From positions 2,083 through 62,939 of the forward strand of contig PLYR01000077.1 of NCBI GenBank assembly GCA_003153435.1: DNA of 60,857 nt, written 5' to 3'. This stretch comes from Bacteroidota bacterium. GTDB taxonomy: Bacteria > Bacteroidota > Bacteroidia > Palsa-965. This document shows positions 14,066-49,072 of the stretch, piece by piece. The translations under genes and the position numbers were made by a program. Position 1 is the first letter of the stretch, and the number at the start of each line of letters is the position of its first letter. A model generated the notes under the pieces. That model saw only the letters and a list, made by a program, of their open reading frames with translations, did not search any database and had not been told where the DNA came from.

Positions 14066-14590
14066 TCATTTTGTGCCTACAAGAATGTCGAGCATCAAAT
14101 GCAGAATAACCTGATGAAAACACTCCACAATGCCATAGTTGCTCACGGGCAGATAAAAGTTAAGAGAGCCTGCCTTACTGAGCTTGTTTCCATCCTTGAA
14201 CCCTGAAAGGGTGATCACATTCTTATTTATAGAATTAGCATATGCAACTGCATTCAGGATATTTTTCGACTCTCCAGAGCTACTGATCGCGACAAGAAGA
14301 TCACCTTCCGTAAAATGTATTTTCAACCACTCTTCCATAGCCTTTTCATACCCATAATCATTGGCATAACAGGTAATGAGGGCGGAATCAGAGAATGAAA
14401 ATGTAGGAAATCTTCCCATTTTAGCGAAATCTTCCATCATGTGGGAGCAAATAGAATTCGAGCCTCCATTCCCAATAAAAAAGACACGCTTGCTTTTCCT
14501 GATGATTTCCACACCTGACTCGATCTGCTCTCTAAGGAGCGCTGAACCAAACCAACTGGAGAAATGTTTACTATATGAATCTATCTGCAT
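14066..14590 (-). CDS. gmhA: Sedoheptulose-7-phosphate isomerase-like SIS protein (GmhA)
   Basis: 174 residues from ATG 14590; an earlier ATG at 14626 would add 12 residues but overlap the kinase gene by 56 rather than 20 bases. SIS-domain signatures are VFFIGNGGSNSICSHMMEDF and LLVAISSSGESKNILNAV, the phosphate-binding Ser-rich loops of GmhA. The C-terminal VECFHQVILHLMLDIL supplies the conserved E...H pair of the GmhA active site. GmhA converts sedoheptulose 7-phosphate to D-glycero-D-manno-heptose 7-phosphate. The gene sits between the kinase and nucleotidyltransferase of the same pathway, which supports the call. Confidence 0.87.
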   Translation of the reverse strand: MQIDSYSKHFSSWFGSALLREQIESGVEIIRKSKRVFFIGNGGSNSICSHMMEDFAKMGRFPTFSFSDSALITCYANDYGYEKAMEEWLKIHFTEGDLLVAISSSGESKNILNAVAYANSINKNVITLSGFKDGNKLSKAGSLNFYLPVSNYGIVECFHQVILHLMLDILVGTK

Positions 14591-15446
14591 ACTCAAAAAG
14601 GTTATCCCGTGTAACTGATCGTTCATTGCATAGCCATGTTGTGCTCAGGCTCGCTGCAAGGGATGGTATACTCAGGCTGTTAATATCAGGTTCTATAGCT
14701 GCAAGAAGGCATGCGAAAGAAAAATAAGTATCTCCGGCTCCGATGGTATCAACGATTGTACTCGGATAAGCAGAATGCCGTATAAGTCTTACTCCATCTG
14801 TACAAACCGATCCTTTCCCTCCCAGTGTCAGAAAAAGCACATTCGAATTTATCTCATAATTATACAATTCCAGGATATCAGAATCTTTTTCCGTGAGCGT
14901 ACGGTTCATCTGAAGGCTTCCTTCCCTAAGGTCCAGGCTGACACTATTTTTTCTGTATTTTTTCCATTTCGAAATTCGATTAAAACCAAAATTATTCGAG
15001 TTTGTCTGACAATTGAGATGAAAACCACCATTGATCTTCAGCCGATCGCAAAAACCATGTCCAAAATCAGCTACAATACAAACATCATAATCCCTGGTAT
15101 CAATAACAATTTCTTCAAATCCTTTAGTTTCAAATTTATTGATTTCTACATGCTTCTTCTGATCAAATGTGTCCACATACCTGGTTTTCACAATTTCTCC
15201 TTTGGTATTCGTAATGAGATCTACCGTCTTCACAAAATCCTTTACGTGGCCAGCTATCGCAGCGGTTCCACCTTGCTGAACAGTTTTTTGTCCGCCGGAA
15301 AGTTTGTAGACAGGGCAAGCCGCTTTCATAGAGTGCCCTTCGTAAATAACTGGGACAAATTCGTCAATAATAGTTTCTCCAATCACCGCAACCCTGAGGT
15401 TTTTGCATTTGGAGATGAATTTTTCGACTTCCTGCTTCAGTGCCAC
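14571..15446 (-). CDS. PfkB-family sugar kinase (HldE-N-like heptose kinase)
   Basis: 291 residues from a GTG at 15446; the first in-frame ATG lies about 40 codons in and would remove the first beta strand. Ribokinase-fold motifs are VAVIGETIIDEF at the start, the GGQKTVQQGGTAAIAGHV loop and the C-terminal DTIGAGDTYFSFACLL, where the Asp in GAGD is the catalytic base. It resembles the kinase half of HldE, which phosphorylates heptose 7-phosphate at C1. Here kinase and nucleotidyltransferase are separate genes rather than one fused protein. It overlaps gmhA. A TACCTTTG box at 15473-15480 suggests that a transcript starts here. Confidence 0.83.
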   Translation of the reverse strand: MALKQEVEKFISKCKNLRVAVIGETIIDEFVPVIYEGHSMKAACPVYKLSGGQKTVQQGGTAAIAGHVKDFVKTVDLITNTKGEIVKTRYVDTFDQKKHVEINKFETKGFEEIVIDTRDYDVCIVADFGHGFCDRLKINGGFHLNCQTNSNNFGFNRISKWKKYRKNSVSLDLREGSLQMNRTLTEKDSDILELYNYEINSNVLFLTLGGKGSVCTDGVRLIRHSAYPSTIVDTIGAGDTYFSFACLLAAIEPDINSLSIPSLAASLSTTWLCNERSVTRDNLFEYADRFI

Positions 15447-25690: not shown

Positions 25691-26704
25691 ATGGAACTCT
25701 ATTTGGATTCTGCGAACTTAAAAGAAATTGAAGAAGGTTTTAAGCTTGGTTTTCTTAATGGATTAACCACCACACCTACCTTCATGCAAAAAGAGGGGAT
25801 TACAGATATTGACGGTACAATCGTTAAACTTTCTAAAATGGTCCCGGTACTTCAGATTGAAGCACTGGGAGATACTGCCGAAGAAATTCTTAAAGAAGCT
25901 CAACGTCAATTAAACCTTGGATTGAGCAAAGAGAAAACGGTCTTCAAGATTCCTGTATCTCTCGAAGGGGTGAGGGCCTGTAAAATGCTCCGGAATGAAG
26001 GTCTTCTCGTCAATGTACACCTGGTATATACTCTTCAACAAGCGTATATGGCTATGCAGGCTGGGGCTACTTATGTATGCCCCCTTGTAGGAAGGCTTCA
26101 GGACCAGGGGCATGATGCACTTGCATTGGTCGAACAATGTGTAGACGCAGTTGAATATTACGGATACGATACCAAAATTATGTTCTCCTCTGTTAGAAAC
26201 AATGAGCATGTGAGAAATGCAATCAATATTGGGGTCCATACAATCACTGTTCCTCTTAAGATACTGAAATCTCTCACTGAAAACAACTTTACCACCATGG
26301 GTACGGAGCAATTCATCCGCGATACCCGCCTCATGACCGTAAAGGTTAAAGATGCCATTAACAAAATAAACCCGGTCGTATCTGCGTCGAGCAAACTGGG
26401 GGATGCGATTGTGAAAATGACTGAATTTGGCTTTGGCGCAATAACCGTTACTAACGCTGATGGATCTGTGAAAGGCGTGTTCACTGACGGAGATCTGAGA
26501 AGACTCCTTGGCAAGGATGGAAGAGATATCCTAGGCAAAAAAATGGAAGAATTCAGTTATAATACACCTATTGCAGTAGATGGCAATGTCCTCCTGAATG
26601 ATGCTGCTCTTCTTTTTAAGAAGACTAATGTTGATACCTTACTCGTTACCGAAGCTGGCAAACCTGTTGGAATGCTGGATATACAGGACCTGAAAAACGA
26701 CTAA
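25691..26704 (+). CDS. Transaldolase/FSA-like aldolase fused to a KdsD-type CBS pair
   Basis: 337 residues. Residues 1-220 align along their length with the short transaldolases and fructose-6-phosphate aldolase: MELYLD (Asp6), the Schiff-base lysine Lys86 in VFKIPVSLEG, and CPLVGRLQDQG. The almost universal TTNP motif near residue 28 reads TTTP, losing the Asn that contacts substrate. Residues about 235-337 are two CBS motifs with GVFTDGDLRRLL and VGMLDIQDL, the C-terminal signature of arabinose-5-phosphate isomerase KdsD, where the partner domain would be SIS. The next two genes (22 and 9 base gaps) are KdsC-like and KdsB. It probably supplies or controls a sugar phosphate for Kdo or a Kdo analogue. 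Domain calls are strong; the reaction is inferred. Confidence 0.85.
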   Translation: MELYLDSANLKEIEEGFKLGFLNGLTTTPTFMQKEGITDIDGTIVKLSKMVPVLQIEALGDTAEEILKEAQRQLNLGLSKEKTVFKIPVSLEGVRACKMLRNEGLLVNVHLVYTLQQAYMAMQAGATYVCPLVGRLQDQGHDALALVEQCVDAVEYYGYDTKIMFSSVRNNEHVRNAINIGVHTITVPLKILKSLTENNFTTMGTEQFIRDTRLMTVKVKDAINKINPVVSASSKLGDAIVKMTEFGFGAITVTNADGSVKGVFTDGDLRRLLGKDGRDILGKKMEEFSYNTPIAVDGNVLLNDAALLFKKTNVDTLLVTEAGKPVGMLDIQDLKND

Positions 26705-26725
26705 AATTCAATCCGTGAGAGCCTG

Positions 26726-27442
26726 ATGGACCCTATTGTTAAAACGATTTCCGAACTTTTTTCAGAACAAGGCGGAGTATTTCTCTCCTCCCCAGAAGAG
26801 GTAAGTAAAAAGTTAGACCGGATTAAAGCTTATGTTTTTGATTGGGATGGGGTCTTCAACAAAGGATCAAAAAACGAACAGGGAAGCAGCGATTATAATG
26901 AGATTGACAGCATGGGAATTAACATGCTCCGGTTTTCACATTGGATAAGAACCAAGAATTCTCCCTGGACCGCCATTATTTCCGGAGAAAAAAACACAGC
27001 CTCTTTTCAGCTCTGTTCAAGAGAACATTTTACCAGTTGTTATTATAAGGTGGCACACAAAACAGATGCTCTAGAACATCTCTGCTCGACCCTAAAAATA
27101 AAGCCCGAGGAAGTAGCCTTTGTATTCGACGATATCCTGGATCTTTCAATTGCTCCTAAATGCGGACTTCGAATCCTGATCAACCGCCCGGGGGTATCTA
27201 TGGTCAGGAATTATGTTATCGAACACAAACTTGCAGATTATATTACTTCCGGGAGAGGAGAAAATTATGCATTGAGAGAAGCCTGCGAAATGATGATCGG
27301 AATAAAAGGTTTTTGGAATAGAGTAATAGATGAAAGAGTTGGTTATTCTCCGGCTTACCAGGAATATCTCAGGGAAAGGAATGCTACAGACACTACCTAT
27401 TATTCCCGCATAAACCAGCAGATTGAAGAAGCTAATCCCTGA
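26726..27442 (+). CDS. KdsC-like HAD phosphatase with extended ends
   Basis: 238 residues, about 50 more than typical KdsC. HAD motif I is VFDWDGVFNKG (nucleophile Asp39, acid Asp41). Motif II is IISGEKN, the Lys is in YYKVAHKTDAL, and motif IV is FVFDDILDLSIAPKCGL, matching the KdsC pattern DDxxDxxxxxxxGL. KdsC removes phosphate from Kdo 8-phosphate. The extra parts are about 33 residues at the N-terminus and a 40-residue tail (FWNRVIDERVGYSPAYQEYL and beyond). It lies between the transaldolase-CBS gene and kdsB, so a 3-deoxy-sugar phosphate is the likely substrate, by inference from context. Confidence 0.82.
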   Translation: MDPIVKTISELFSEQGGVFLSSPEEVSKKLDRIKAYVFDWDGVFNKGSKNEQGSSDYNEIDSMGINMLRFSHWIRTKNSPWTAIISGEKNTASFQLCSREHFTSCYYKVAHKTDALEHLCSTLKIKPEEVAFVFDDILDLSIAPKCGLRILINRPGVSMVRNYVIEHKLADYITSGRGENYALREACEMMIGIKGFWNRVIDERVGYSPAYQEYLRERNATDTTYYSRINQQIEEANP

Positions 27443-27451
27443 ACTAGCCAT

Positions 27452-28189
27452 ATGATCCTAGGAATTATCCCGGCCCGTTATGCTTCTACCCGTTATCCAG
27501 GGAAACCATTGATCGATATCAAAGGAAAAAGTATGATTCAGCGGGTCTACGAACAAAGCCTTGGTGCAAAGAAACTGGATAAAGTATTGGTTGCAACAGA
27601 TGATCAACGAATCTTTGATCATGTGCTTGGATTTGGAGGAAACGCAGTAATGACCGGTTCCAATCACCCCAGCGGGACGGATAGATGCCAGGAAGCCCTG
27701 GAACTTTCAAAGGGGCCGTTCAAGTATGTCATTAACATCCAGGGCGATGAACCTTTTATTGACCCTTCACAGATCGATCTTTTGGCAGACCTTCTTGACG
27801 GACAAGTTGAACTAGCCACCCTGATGATACCAGTTGATTCTGAGGAAGTACTCTTCGACAAGGGAGAAGTTAAAGTGGTGTTTAACTCTGCAATGGAAGC
27901 CCTTTATTTCAGCCGAACACCAATCCCGGCTATAAAAGGAGTTCCAGAGGGTAAGTGGCATTTGCATCATCCCTTCTTCAGACATGTAGGCTTGTATGCC
28001 TATCGGGCTGATATACTTAAACAAATCACTTTACTGCCCCCATCCCTTCTTGAAAACGCAGAATCACTGGAACAGTTGAGATGGCTTGAGAATGGATTTA
28101 AAATTAAATTGGCTGTGACCCTTTTCGACAGCCATTGCATTGACACACCTGAAGATGTTGAAAAGGCACTCAGGTTGATGAATAAATAA
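27452..28189 (+). CDS. kdsB: 3-deoxy-manno-octulosonate cytidylyltransferase (KdsB)
   Basis: 245 residues, standard length. Signatures are ILGIIPARYASTRYPGKPL at the N-terminus (CTP-binding loop with Arg and Lys), VATDDQRI, MTGSNHPSGTDRCQEAL, NIQGDEPFI and a C-terminal half with FFRHVGLYAYR and ENAESLEQLRWLENG. The enzyme activates Kdo to CMP-Kdo for lipid A/core assembly in the cytoplasm. It is the last gene of the operon and converges with the response-regulator gene 1 base away, with no terminator hairpin seen. Confidence 0.96.
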   Translation: MILGIIPARYASTRYPGKPLIDIKGKSMIQRVYEQSLGAKKLDKVLVATDDQRIFDHVLGFGGNAVMTGSNHPSGTDRCQEALELSKGPFKYVINIQGDEPFIDPSQIDLLADLLDGQVELATLMIPVDSEEVLFDKGEVKVVFNSAMEALYFSRTPIPAIKGVPEGKWHLHHPFFRHVGLYAYRADILKQITLLPPSLLENAESLEQLRWLENGFKIKLAVTLFDSHCIDTPEDVEKALRLMNK

Positions 28190-46620: not shown

Positions 46621-47922
46621 TCAGTTTGCAGCAAGTTTAGTCATTTCCTCATATACCTTTAACCAACCCTCCCATTGTTTTTCATTGCACAGGCTTTCGT
46701 TATGCCAGAGGCTCACAAATGTGCCATTGACTTTCCGAACCTCCTCAATCAAGGGGCCAATAACTTCTATAGCCCGCTCCGGAGGAACCTTCATATAATA
46801 TTTCAGGGTAGCATCCATAATAGCAAAAGGATGGATACGGAGTTTGGTTTCCACTTCCTGATCGAGATCATAAAAATTAAATGCTGAACAAATCCCGGCC
46901 CTGAAACCAATTTCATTTGCAAAACCCATGGTATGATCATCTGTAATATCAAGATCGATCAGGTTCCGGTAGGTATCCGGAAATGAAAGTTTAAGAAAAT
47001 GCTGACGGCTATTGGTTACTTCCCGGTGAAGTACATTCCCCAGTCGGCTCACCTCCCGTTTTAGCCGCTCCGGATATTCATTGGATCCATAAGATGGATG
47101 AACCCCCACCTCGGCATAATCTCCTACTGTTTTAATAAGTGATTGGAATTTTCGGCTTTCTATAGGAAGGTTTTTATCATTCAATCCATAATCTCCAACC
47201 AGGAAAAAATAAAGAGTTTTGAGTTTGTATTTTTTCTGGATAGCAAACTGAAAATCATAAGTATCATAAGGATCTTTTTTTAGCCCTAGCAGAACCTTCG
47301 TACGGTCATTAATATTTGTAAAATCAAATTTAAGGAGATCTTTCAGGTACCCTCCCAGGGTCCGCATCATTCCTTTTTCGCGGTATGCATATGCATTGTC
47401 AATGTCGATGGTAGATACATAAGCATATTTCTGTCCGGGGAACACTAATCCCGGGAAATGTTTCTGAAGCACCTCCGCAACCATTAATGCCCATTGGTTC
47501 ACTACTGGTATGGTCAGGAATCCGTTTTTCCAGGCCAGGCTTTCTTTCGCATCAAAACGGTCGTGCGAATCGCGGATATGGGGCAGATATTCTTCATACC
47601 GGCTTACCAGGTAAAACGATGCGGCAAAAGGGTCGAATGGCAGTGCCGATTTTTTTCCGGTAGGGAAAAATATTTTGCCTCCCTTCCAATCACTTACCGT
47701 CACATGCTGTTCCTTGATGCCGGATTCAAAGAGCAGAGGAACAGATTCAAAATGTAGCTCCTCCCCAAGAGCAGAGGGTGAGTATGAAAATTTTGGGCCT
47801 TCATATTCATCAAATTCAGCTTTGCTTTCAGTCAAACTGCAATTTGTTCCAAGCAGTTCCTGAAAGAAAAGTCTAAACATATACCGGTTACGGGGCGAAA
47901 TTTTATGGGTGTAAGCGAGCAT
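46621..47922 (-). CDS. Polysaccharide deacetylase with N-terminal extra domain
   Basis: 433 residues from ATG 47922 (MLAYTHKISPRNRYMFRLFF), 1 base after the wecB TGA; an earlier start at 47982 would overlap wecB. The first 180 residues are an all-purpose N-terminal region of the DUF7033 type found before Bacteroidota deacetylases (LPFDPFAASFYLVSRYEEYLP). The NodB-like domain follows: VSTIDIDNAYAYREKG (catalytic Asp pair), VGVHPSYGSNE (His), TMGFANEIGFRAGIC (Arg) and SLWHNESL (C-terminal His). It removes acetyl groups from a glycan; the substrate is inferred to be ManNAc/GlcNAc-containing from the adjacent WecB. Confidence 0.87.
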   Translation of the reverse strand: MLAYTHKISPRNRYMFRLFFQELLGTNCSLTESKAEFDEYEGPKFSYSPSALGEELHFESVPLLFESGIKEQHVTVSDWKGGKIFFPTGKKSALPFDPFAASFYLVSRYEEYLPHIRDSHDRFDAKESLAWKNGFLTIPVVNQWALMVAEVLQKHFPGLVFPGQKYAYVSTIDIDNAYAYREKGMMRTLGGYLKDLLKFDFTNINDRTKVLLGLKKDPYDTYDFQFAIQKKYKLKTLYFFLVGDYGLNDKNLPIESRKFQSLIKTVGDYAEVGVHPSYGSNEYPERLKREVSRLGNVLHREVTNSRQHFLKLSFPDTYRNLIDLDITDDHTMGFANEIGFRAGICSAFNFYDLDQEVETKLRIHPFAIMDATLKYYMKVPPERAIEVIGPLIEEVRKVNGTFVSLWHNESLCNEKQWEGWLKVYEEMTKLAAN

Positions 47923-47923
47923 C

Positions 47924-49072
47924 TCAGGCAAATGTTTTAAGCAGTTCGGAACAGATATATTCGGAAGCATGCCCGTCTCCAAAAATCGGAGGGAATTTTA
48001 GTGTCTTGCTTATTGCAAAGGAATGGTAAGCTTCCAGAATGCGGTTTTCGTCGGCATCAGTAATAATCGCGGCGCCCGATTGAACCAGCTCCACCCATTC
48101 TGTTTCAGGACGGAGGATAATACAGGGTTTATGAAAATAAAATGCTTCTTTCTGCACACCTCCCGAATCTGTCATTACTAGCCGTGCATGTTTTTCGAGT
48201 GTGATCATCTCCAAAAAAGAAACCGGTTCAAGTATCCGGAAAGTAGTATTGGCTTTTACAGCTGCCAGCAACTCCTTAGGGAGGTTTTTTTCCAGCAGTT
48301 TGGCCGTACGGGGATGCAGGGGAAGTATAATTTTTATTTTTTCTTTCAGGGAGATGCGGTTCAAGGCACTGAACAAGGCAGATAAGCGCTCAGGCTCATC
48401 GGTATTATTGTTCCGGTGAATGGTAGCGAGGATAAATTCTCCCTTGGAAAGCTTTTCATCTTTCAGGATATTGGTTTTTGAATCGGCGATCTCTGAAAAA
48501 TAAAGGCTGTTATCGTACATCACATCCCCACAATGAATAATATGTGGATTATCGGCATTATAGGGTCCTGGATTGTTTTCCTTAAATCCTTCTTTCACCA
48601 GGTTTTTATAACCTGCGCTTGTGGGTGAAAAAAGTAAGGTAGAAATATGATCAGCCATGATACGGTTAATCTCCTCAGGCATGGCTTTGTTGAAAGAACG
48701 AAGTCCTGCTTCTATGTGTACTACCGGAACATGGAGCTTGGATGCAGCAATGGCTCCCGCAAGCGTAGAGTTCGTATCTCCATAAATGACCAATGCATTC
48801 GGCGCCTCTTTAAGGAGGATTTCTTCCAGTGCAATAATCATGGCAGCGGTTTGTTTGCCATGACTTCCTGATCCTACCTGCAGGTTATAATCCGGCAATG
48901 GAATACCAAGCTCGGAGAAAAAAACAGCTGACATATTCTCATCGTAATGCTGCCCTGTATGAATGATTATTTCCCTGATCTGATCGGAGTAGTGGTTCCG
49001 GATGGCCCTGCTCAGAGCAGCAGCCTTGATAATCTGGGGTCTGGCACCGACAATGGTGAGTATTTTGAGCAT
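47924..49072 (-). CDS. wecB: UDP-N-acetylglucosamine 2-epimerase (WecB), copy 2
   Basis: 382 residues. Motifs are TIVGARPQIIKAAALSRA, IHTGQHYDENMSAVFF, IYGDTNSTLAGAIAAS, VHIEAGLRSFNKAMPEEINR and the C-terminal MTDSGGVQKEAFYF. VGARPQ instead of VGTRPN, and VQKEA instead of IQEES, place it in a different subgroup from copy 1. It supplies UDP-ManNAc or a related 2-epimer for surface glycans. It starts 33 bases after radC and is coupled to the deacetylase downstream. Confidence 0.94.
   Translation of the reverse strand: MLKILTIVGARPQIIKAAALSRAIRNHYSDQIREIIIHTGQHYDENMSAVFFSELGIPLPDYNLQVGSGSHGKQTAAMIIALEEILLKEAPNALVIYGDTNSTLAGAIAASKLHVPVVHIEAGLRSFNKAMPEEINRIMADHISTLLFSPTSAGYKNLVKEGFKENNPGPYNADNPHIIHCGDVMYDNSLYFSEIADSKTNILKDEKLSKGEFILATIHRNNNTDEPERLSALFSALNRISLKEKIKIILPLHPRTAKLLEKNLPKELLAAVKANTTFRILEPVSFLEMITLEKHARLVMTDSGGVQKEAFYFHKPCIILRPETEWVELVQSGAAIITDADENRILEAYHSFAISKTLKFPPIFGDGHASEYICSELLKTFA

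Follow-up and report, generated by a model that had tools for sequence, protein, structure and literature searches.

Kdo is a core sugar of the bacterial outer membrane, whose synthesis is mostly essential and a drug target, and A5P (arabinose 5-phosphate) isomerase is treated as the standard entry step of its pathway. Within the window analyzed here, the whole 60,857-nucleotide stretch of DNA from a Bacteroidota genome, three co-directional genes separated by gaps of 21 and 9 bases encode a transaldolase-like enzyme fused to a sensor domain of the KdsD type, a KdsC-like phosphatase and KdsB (Table 1), raising the question of whether this fusion supplies A5P in place of the SIS-type isomerase KdsD. 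As originally described, the window encodes neither KdsA nor a SIS-type KdsD. The one SIS protein present is GmhA-like (14066-14626; 78 bits, cut-off 265). It overlaps a weakly matching PfkB-type kinase akin to domain I of RfaE, the pair (14066-15446, minus strand) representing a possible divergent heptose-phosphate module in a glycosyltransferase-rich stretch. Elsewhere on the minus strand, a DUF7033 protein (46621-47982) with a sub-cut-off match to the UDP-2,3-diacetamido-glucuronate deacetylase VimE adjoins a second wecB-like UDP-GlcNAc 2-epimerase (47924-49072).

Table 1. Coordinates of the Kdo-associated features in the window, with the evidence for each assignment.
Feature	Coordinates	Strand	Evidence
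Transaldolase/FSA-CBS fusion, 337 aa; candidate A5P-forming enzyme in place of SIS-type KdsD	25691..26704	+	Pfam TAL_FSA and two CBS; AlphaFold2 model; anticorrelation with KdsD
TAL/FSA domain, residues 1-214	25691..26332	+	Alignment to TALs; invariant residues in 86/86 fusions (mostly closest relatives)
Codon of Lys86, Schiff-base lysine position	25946..25948	+	Alignment to Lys of TM0295 and TaTAL; numbering as Lys86 of PDB 3s1w
CBS pair, residues 215-337, KdsD type (GVFTDGDLRR)	26333..26701	+	Best PDB match 4o9k, by sequence and fold
Long KdsC-like HAD phosphatase, 238 aa; proposed Kdo8P phosphatase of the cluster	26726..27442	+	PRK09484 KdsC 54 bits, below cut-off; HAD residues kept
KdsB, CMP-Kdo synthetase, 245 aa	27452..28189	+	TIGR00466 204.2 bits vs cut-off 155.2

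Profile searches, together with PDB sequence and fold matches, confirmed that the first gene joins a transaldolase/FSA domain to a KdsD-type CBS pair, with residues 3-201 matching Pfam TAL_FSA (125.6 bits, cut-off 27) and two CBS domains following (49.3 bits, cut-off 24). The AlphaFold2 model (mean pLDDT 88) found its nearest PDB fold in the Thermoplasma transaldolase 3s0c (TM-score 0.83 by target length), and Lys86 carries the same number in the fusion as in the Thermoplasma enzyme. The CBS pair is closest to those of A5P isomerases (NCBIfam kpsF and KdsD), its nearest PDB entries by both sequence and predicted fold being 4o9k, 3k2v and 3fna, and it shares 35.5% identity over 107 aa with its counterpart in the KdsD encoded in the same genome. 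The fusion fell below the fructose-6-phosphate aldolase equivalog cut-off of TIGR00875 (164.6 vs 245.95 bits) and failed the KdsD/KpsF model TIGR00393 (54.4 vs 203.7 bits), matching it through the CBS region alone and without a SIS domain. This architecture is not a chance product, since full-length relatives (61-92% identity) occur in many genomes. The full fusion was found in only 6 of 395 genomes of the phylum (61-100% identity), clearly separated from ordinary transaldolases (TALs) at ~35%, and a contig scan retrieved 491 places encoding a relative, fusion architecture being checked for part of them: the best 80 were all fusions, from organisms labelled mostly Bacteroidota, including several Chitinophagales or Chitinophagaceae.

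The active site combines retained and remodelled positions. Alignment to TALs indicates that Asp6, Thr26, Glu57, Lys86, Asn108, Arg135, Ser167 and Arg169 are kept, including the Lys86 and Asp6 reported originally, and that N28T, T110H, S130C, F132L and D137Q are substituted; by this alignment the Schiff-base lysine and the phosphate-binding residues are preserved while donor and catalytic-water positions are changed. Lys86 and Asp6, as well as T28, H110, C130 and L132, were present in 86/86 fusions, an invariance that partly reflects selection because most of these sequences were chosen as closest relatives (the most divergent being 61% identical), whereas 12/12 ordinary TALs carried N, T, S and F at the four latter positions; the classical transaldolase/FSA site has Asn28, Thr110, Ser/Ala130 and Phe/Tyr132. 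The TTTP motif seen in place of TTNP is real. In FSA, the residues at 28, 109 and 129 border the donor pocket, and the catalytic water is bound at 59/109/131 (PMC13259622); these positions align with T28, H110, C130, E57 and L132 of the fusion. A serine at FSA position 129 favours fructose 6-phosphate/dihydroxyacetone chemistry (PMC7767278, PMC13259622), and its loss here would fit a donor without a C1 hydroxymethyl group, such as glycolaldehyde. With the catalytic-water network altered by T110H and F132L, the activity of an ordinary transaldolase or of FSA should not be taken for granted. The fusion shares with FsaA and the small transaldolases of Thermoplasma acidophilum and Thermotoga maritima its fold and the residues Lys86, Asp6, Glu57, Arg135, Ser167 and Arg169, but differs from them by its substituted pocket, an identity of about 35%, the attached CBS pair and its clustering with Kdo genes.

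This clustering extended well beyond the window. Among 85 fusion loci, a KdsC-like gene was nearby in 62, kdsA in 38 and kdsB in 37, always on the same strand where both partners were present, with median gaps of 39 bases from the fusion to kdsC-like and 4 bases from kdsC-like to kdsB. The common gene order was kdnA-kdnB-kdsA-fusion-kdsC-like-kdsB, kdsA, kdnA and kdnB occurring together in 31/85 loci, i.e. 31 of the 38 bearing kdsA, and none of the 80 scanned loci (the best 80 of the 491) showed a SIS-type KdsD. A role specific to the 8-amino-Kdo branch was rejected, as about half of the fusion genomes with a distant kdsA have no KdnA/KdnB beside it. Likewise, the fusion is not a housekeeping transaldolase in most genomes, because an ordinary TAL is encoded separately in 32 of the 36 fusion genomes.

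As the window's order is small, its survey covering only 12 genomes, the replacement of KdsD was tested on 80 chosen genomes, 36 with and 44 without the fusion. A SIS-type KdsD exceeded its cut-off in 5/36 fusion genomes vs 35/44 fusion-free genomes (Fisher p = 5e-9), counts that are not independent draws, the fusion genomes being mostly close relatives picked knowing that the fusion was present; adding two fusion-free genomes whose KdsD-like match is a single SIS domain brought the latter to 37/44 (p = 2e-10). In the fusion genomes lacking KdsD, the listed matches to the KdsD model were all confined to CBS regions and never included a SIS domain, and one of these genomes, that of Chitinophagaceae bacterium LGM1 (G406, locus L070), is a closed chromosome. 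KdsA reached its cut-off in 72 of the 80 genomes, comprising all those with KdsD, 35/36 with the fusion (the exception, G415, being small at 2.2 Mb) and 0/7 with neither; KdsA never occurred in the absence of both KdsD and the fusion. Seven genomes, six from other genera of the window's family (G396, G397, G398, G400, G401 and G405) and G041, have no KdsA, KdsD or fusion and encode a KdsC-family phosphatase, located in several of them near a DAHP/NeuB-like synthase, a possible different ulosonate pathway. The anticorrelation that the original prediction suggested looking for thus holds outside the window's own genome, and that the fusion stands in for KdsD in most Bacteroidota carrying it is well supported by comparative genomics. 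The two enzymes have in common the type of CBS pair, the KdsA/KdsC/KdsB context and, presumably, the product, with a nearly mutually exclusive distribution; they differ in the catalytic domain, that of the fusion being a class I aldolase on a TIM barrel, with its Schiff-base lysine and without homology to the SIS domain of KdsD, KpsF or GutQ (TIGR00393).

The window's own genome departs from this pattern. A normal SIS-type KdsD (306 bits, cut-off 203.7), adjoining a TatC-like gene on contig C13, is encoded together with one KdsA (contig C89) and two canonical KdsCs, and the fusion coexists with a full KdsD in the three genomes of the window's genus (its own and two congeners) and in two others. 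The proposal that the fusion serves Kdo synthesis by supplying A5P instead of KdsD was therefore borne out by the anticorrelation and by the linkage to kdsA, kdsC-like and kdsB genes, but not by the genome and genus in which it was made; a normal KdsD does lie elsewhere in this genome, and the fusion is not scattered independently of Kdo genes. Directly upstream of the single kdsA (the trio occupying L061:7930-11080) lie kdnA and kdnB, whose products match Shewanella KdnA (5k8b, 433 bits) and KdnB (5k8c, 428 bits) over nearly their full length. The organism therefore probably makes 8-amino-Kdo, and the KdsB of the window, the only one over cut-off in the genome, could by analogy be specific for this sugar. 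Full-length KdnA and KdnB homologues also occur near kdsA at 31 of the 38 fusion loci bearing it; to our knowledge, the description of the Shewanella Kdo8N pathway includes no transaldolase-CBS gene. The fusion was the only TAL_FSA protein detected in this 98%-complete genome, although an ordinary TAL is encoded by the congener G402; the organism's pentose phosphate pathway may either do without a transaldolase or have its gene hidden in an assembly gap.

The two other genes of the cluster agreed with their initial description, KdsB being standard and the phosphatase unusually long (against about 170-185 aa for canonical KdsC). The KdsC-like protein has the HAD motifs of KdsC and its adjacency to kdsB and kdsA, but is about 50-60 residues longer and far under the TIGR01670 cut-off (39.1 vs 106.95 bits). 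Its HAD residues D39, D41, S/T86, K112, D135 and D136 were kept in 63/63 relatives, and a dead enzyme was rejected on this basis. The long form occurred in 33/36 fusion genomes vs 1/44 fusion-free ones, and canonical KdsC reached its cut-off in 22 of the 36 fusion genomes and was absent at cut-off in 14. That this long form is able to take the place of KdsC is well supported by comparative genomics.

Three other explanations were weighed against the replacement of KdsD by the fusion. That the anticorrelation would reflect shared ancestry only, with KdsD-losing lineages happening to carry the fusion, draws on the non-independence of the 36 fusion genomes, most loci having been retrieved for their close relationship to the window protein, but the contrast was repeated inside three families (f3, f9 and f11), where 4/4 fusion genomes were without KdsD and 13/13 fusion-free genomes had it, as well as in G385, which belongs to another class, and KdsA was retained, so that A5P is still needed; we regard this explanation as highly improbable. 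It is also quite improbable that the fusion is a regulated transaldolase feeding pentose phosphates to the Kdo branch, A5P coming from an unrecognized isomerase. The conserved fold, Schiff-base lysine and phosphate-binding residues, a CBS pair suggestive of regulation and the failure to find a second TAL in the window's genome would be in keeping with such a role, which nevertheless sits poorly with the ordinary TAL already available in nearly all fusion genomes and with the replacement of donor-pocket residues conserved in ordinary TALs, and which leaves the loss of KdsD unexplained.

An unlikely scenario is that the aldose phosphate formed by the fusion is not A5P, and that a divergent KdsA joins it with PEP to yield a Kdo analogue rather than Kdo. 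The remodelled donor pocket is compatible with it, as is the KdsA of the fusion genomes, which forms a clade of its own (mostly 73-86% identity to a reference member vs 41-48% for fusion-free KdsAs except that of G249) and scores 323-348 bits against the KdsA model vs 338-395 bits in fusion-free genomes. All KdsAs found in fusion genomes are still over the KDO8P synthase cut-off, however, and the neighbouring KdnA and KdnB act on Kdo itself in Shewanella. Moreover, G249 provides a natural control, in which the same KdsA clade lies within a kdnA-kdnB-kdsA-kdsC-like-kdsB cluster devoid of the fusion (locus L182, G249:C1:3620600-3629600), an ordinary SIS-type KdsD being present as well. Because this clade is paired there with KdsD and no fusion, it most likely uses A5P.

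We therefore retain, with a probability of about 0.7, the fusion as a non-homologous substitute for KdsD, one that would form A5P by lysine-enamine chemistry, with feedback by CMP-Kdo, and supply it to KdsA in the Kdo, often 8-amino-Kdo, pathway. Lys86 would form the imine, and the remodelled donor pocket would accept the two-carbon enamine of glycolaldehyde instead of dihydroxyacetone. E. coli FsaA is reported to produce A5P from glycolaldehyde and glyceraldehyde 3-phosphate, and TalB F178Y to give ribose 5-phosphate too (PMC6298115, PMC9947464), so the transaldolase fold can reach both C2 epimers. Two routes via the glycolaldehyde enamine are proposed on these grounds: a direct aldol reaction joining glycolaldehyde with glyceraldehyde 3-phosphate, as in FsaA and as suggested originally, or the C2 epimerization of ribose 5-phosphate by retro-aldol/aldol reaction, which would need no free glycolaldehyde and is slightly favoured on physiological grounds. 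A simple lysine-imine isomerization of ribulose 5-phosphate appears less probable, as it would leave the rearranged sugar bound to the lysine through an amine linkage. In analogy to its KdsD counterpart, the CBS pair of the fusion may sense CMP-Kdo or CMP-8-amino-Kdo and throttle the first committed step, CMP-Kdo as a ligand resting on PDB 4o9k, which we take to be a CMP-Kdo complex. Our literature searches on KdsD feedback by CMP-Kdo and on a transaldolase-CBS-Kdo link returned nothing relevant, nor did any paper on the fusion turn up.

Many Bacteroidota without a textbook KdsD carry a transaldolase-like enzyme on the same sensor domain, suggesting a different route to the same precursor. On balance, we lean towards this group starting Kdo synthesis with a CMP-sugar-regulated ribose-5-phosphate/arabinose-5-phosphate 2-epimerase, or with a dedicated A5P aldolase, built on a transaldolase fold and not with an A5P isomerase. 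This would also provide a natural A5P aldolase or epimerase; work on synthetic glycolaldehyde assimilation explicitly calls for an A5P aldolase that binds glycolaldehyde with high affinity (PMC9947464). If this is true, an unrelated fold has taken over the A5P step, the sensor domain being kept and the catalytic domain swapped to give a new enzyme activity, which would explain how Kdo is made in many Bacteroidota without KdsD.
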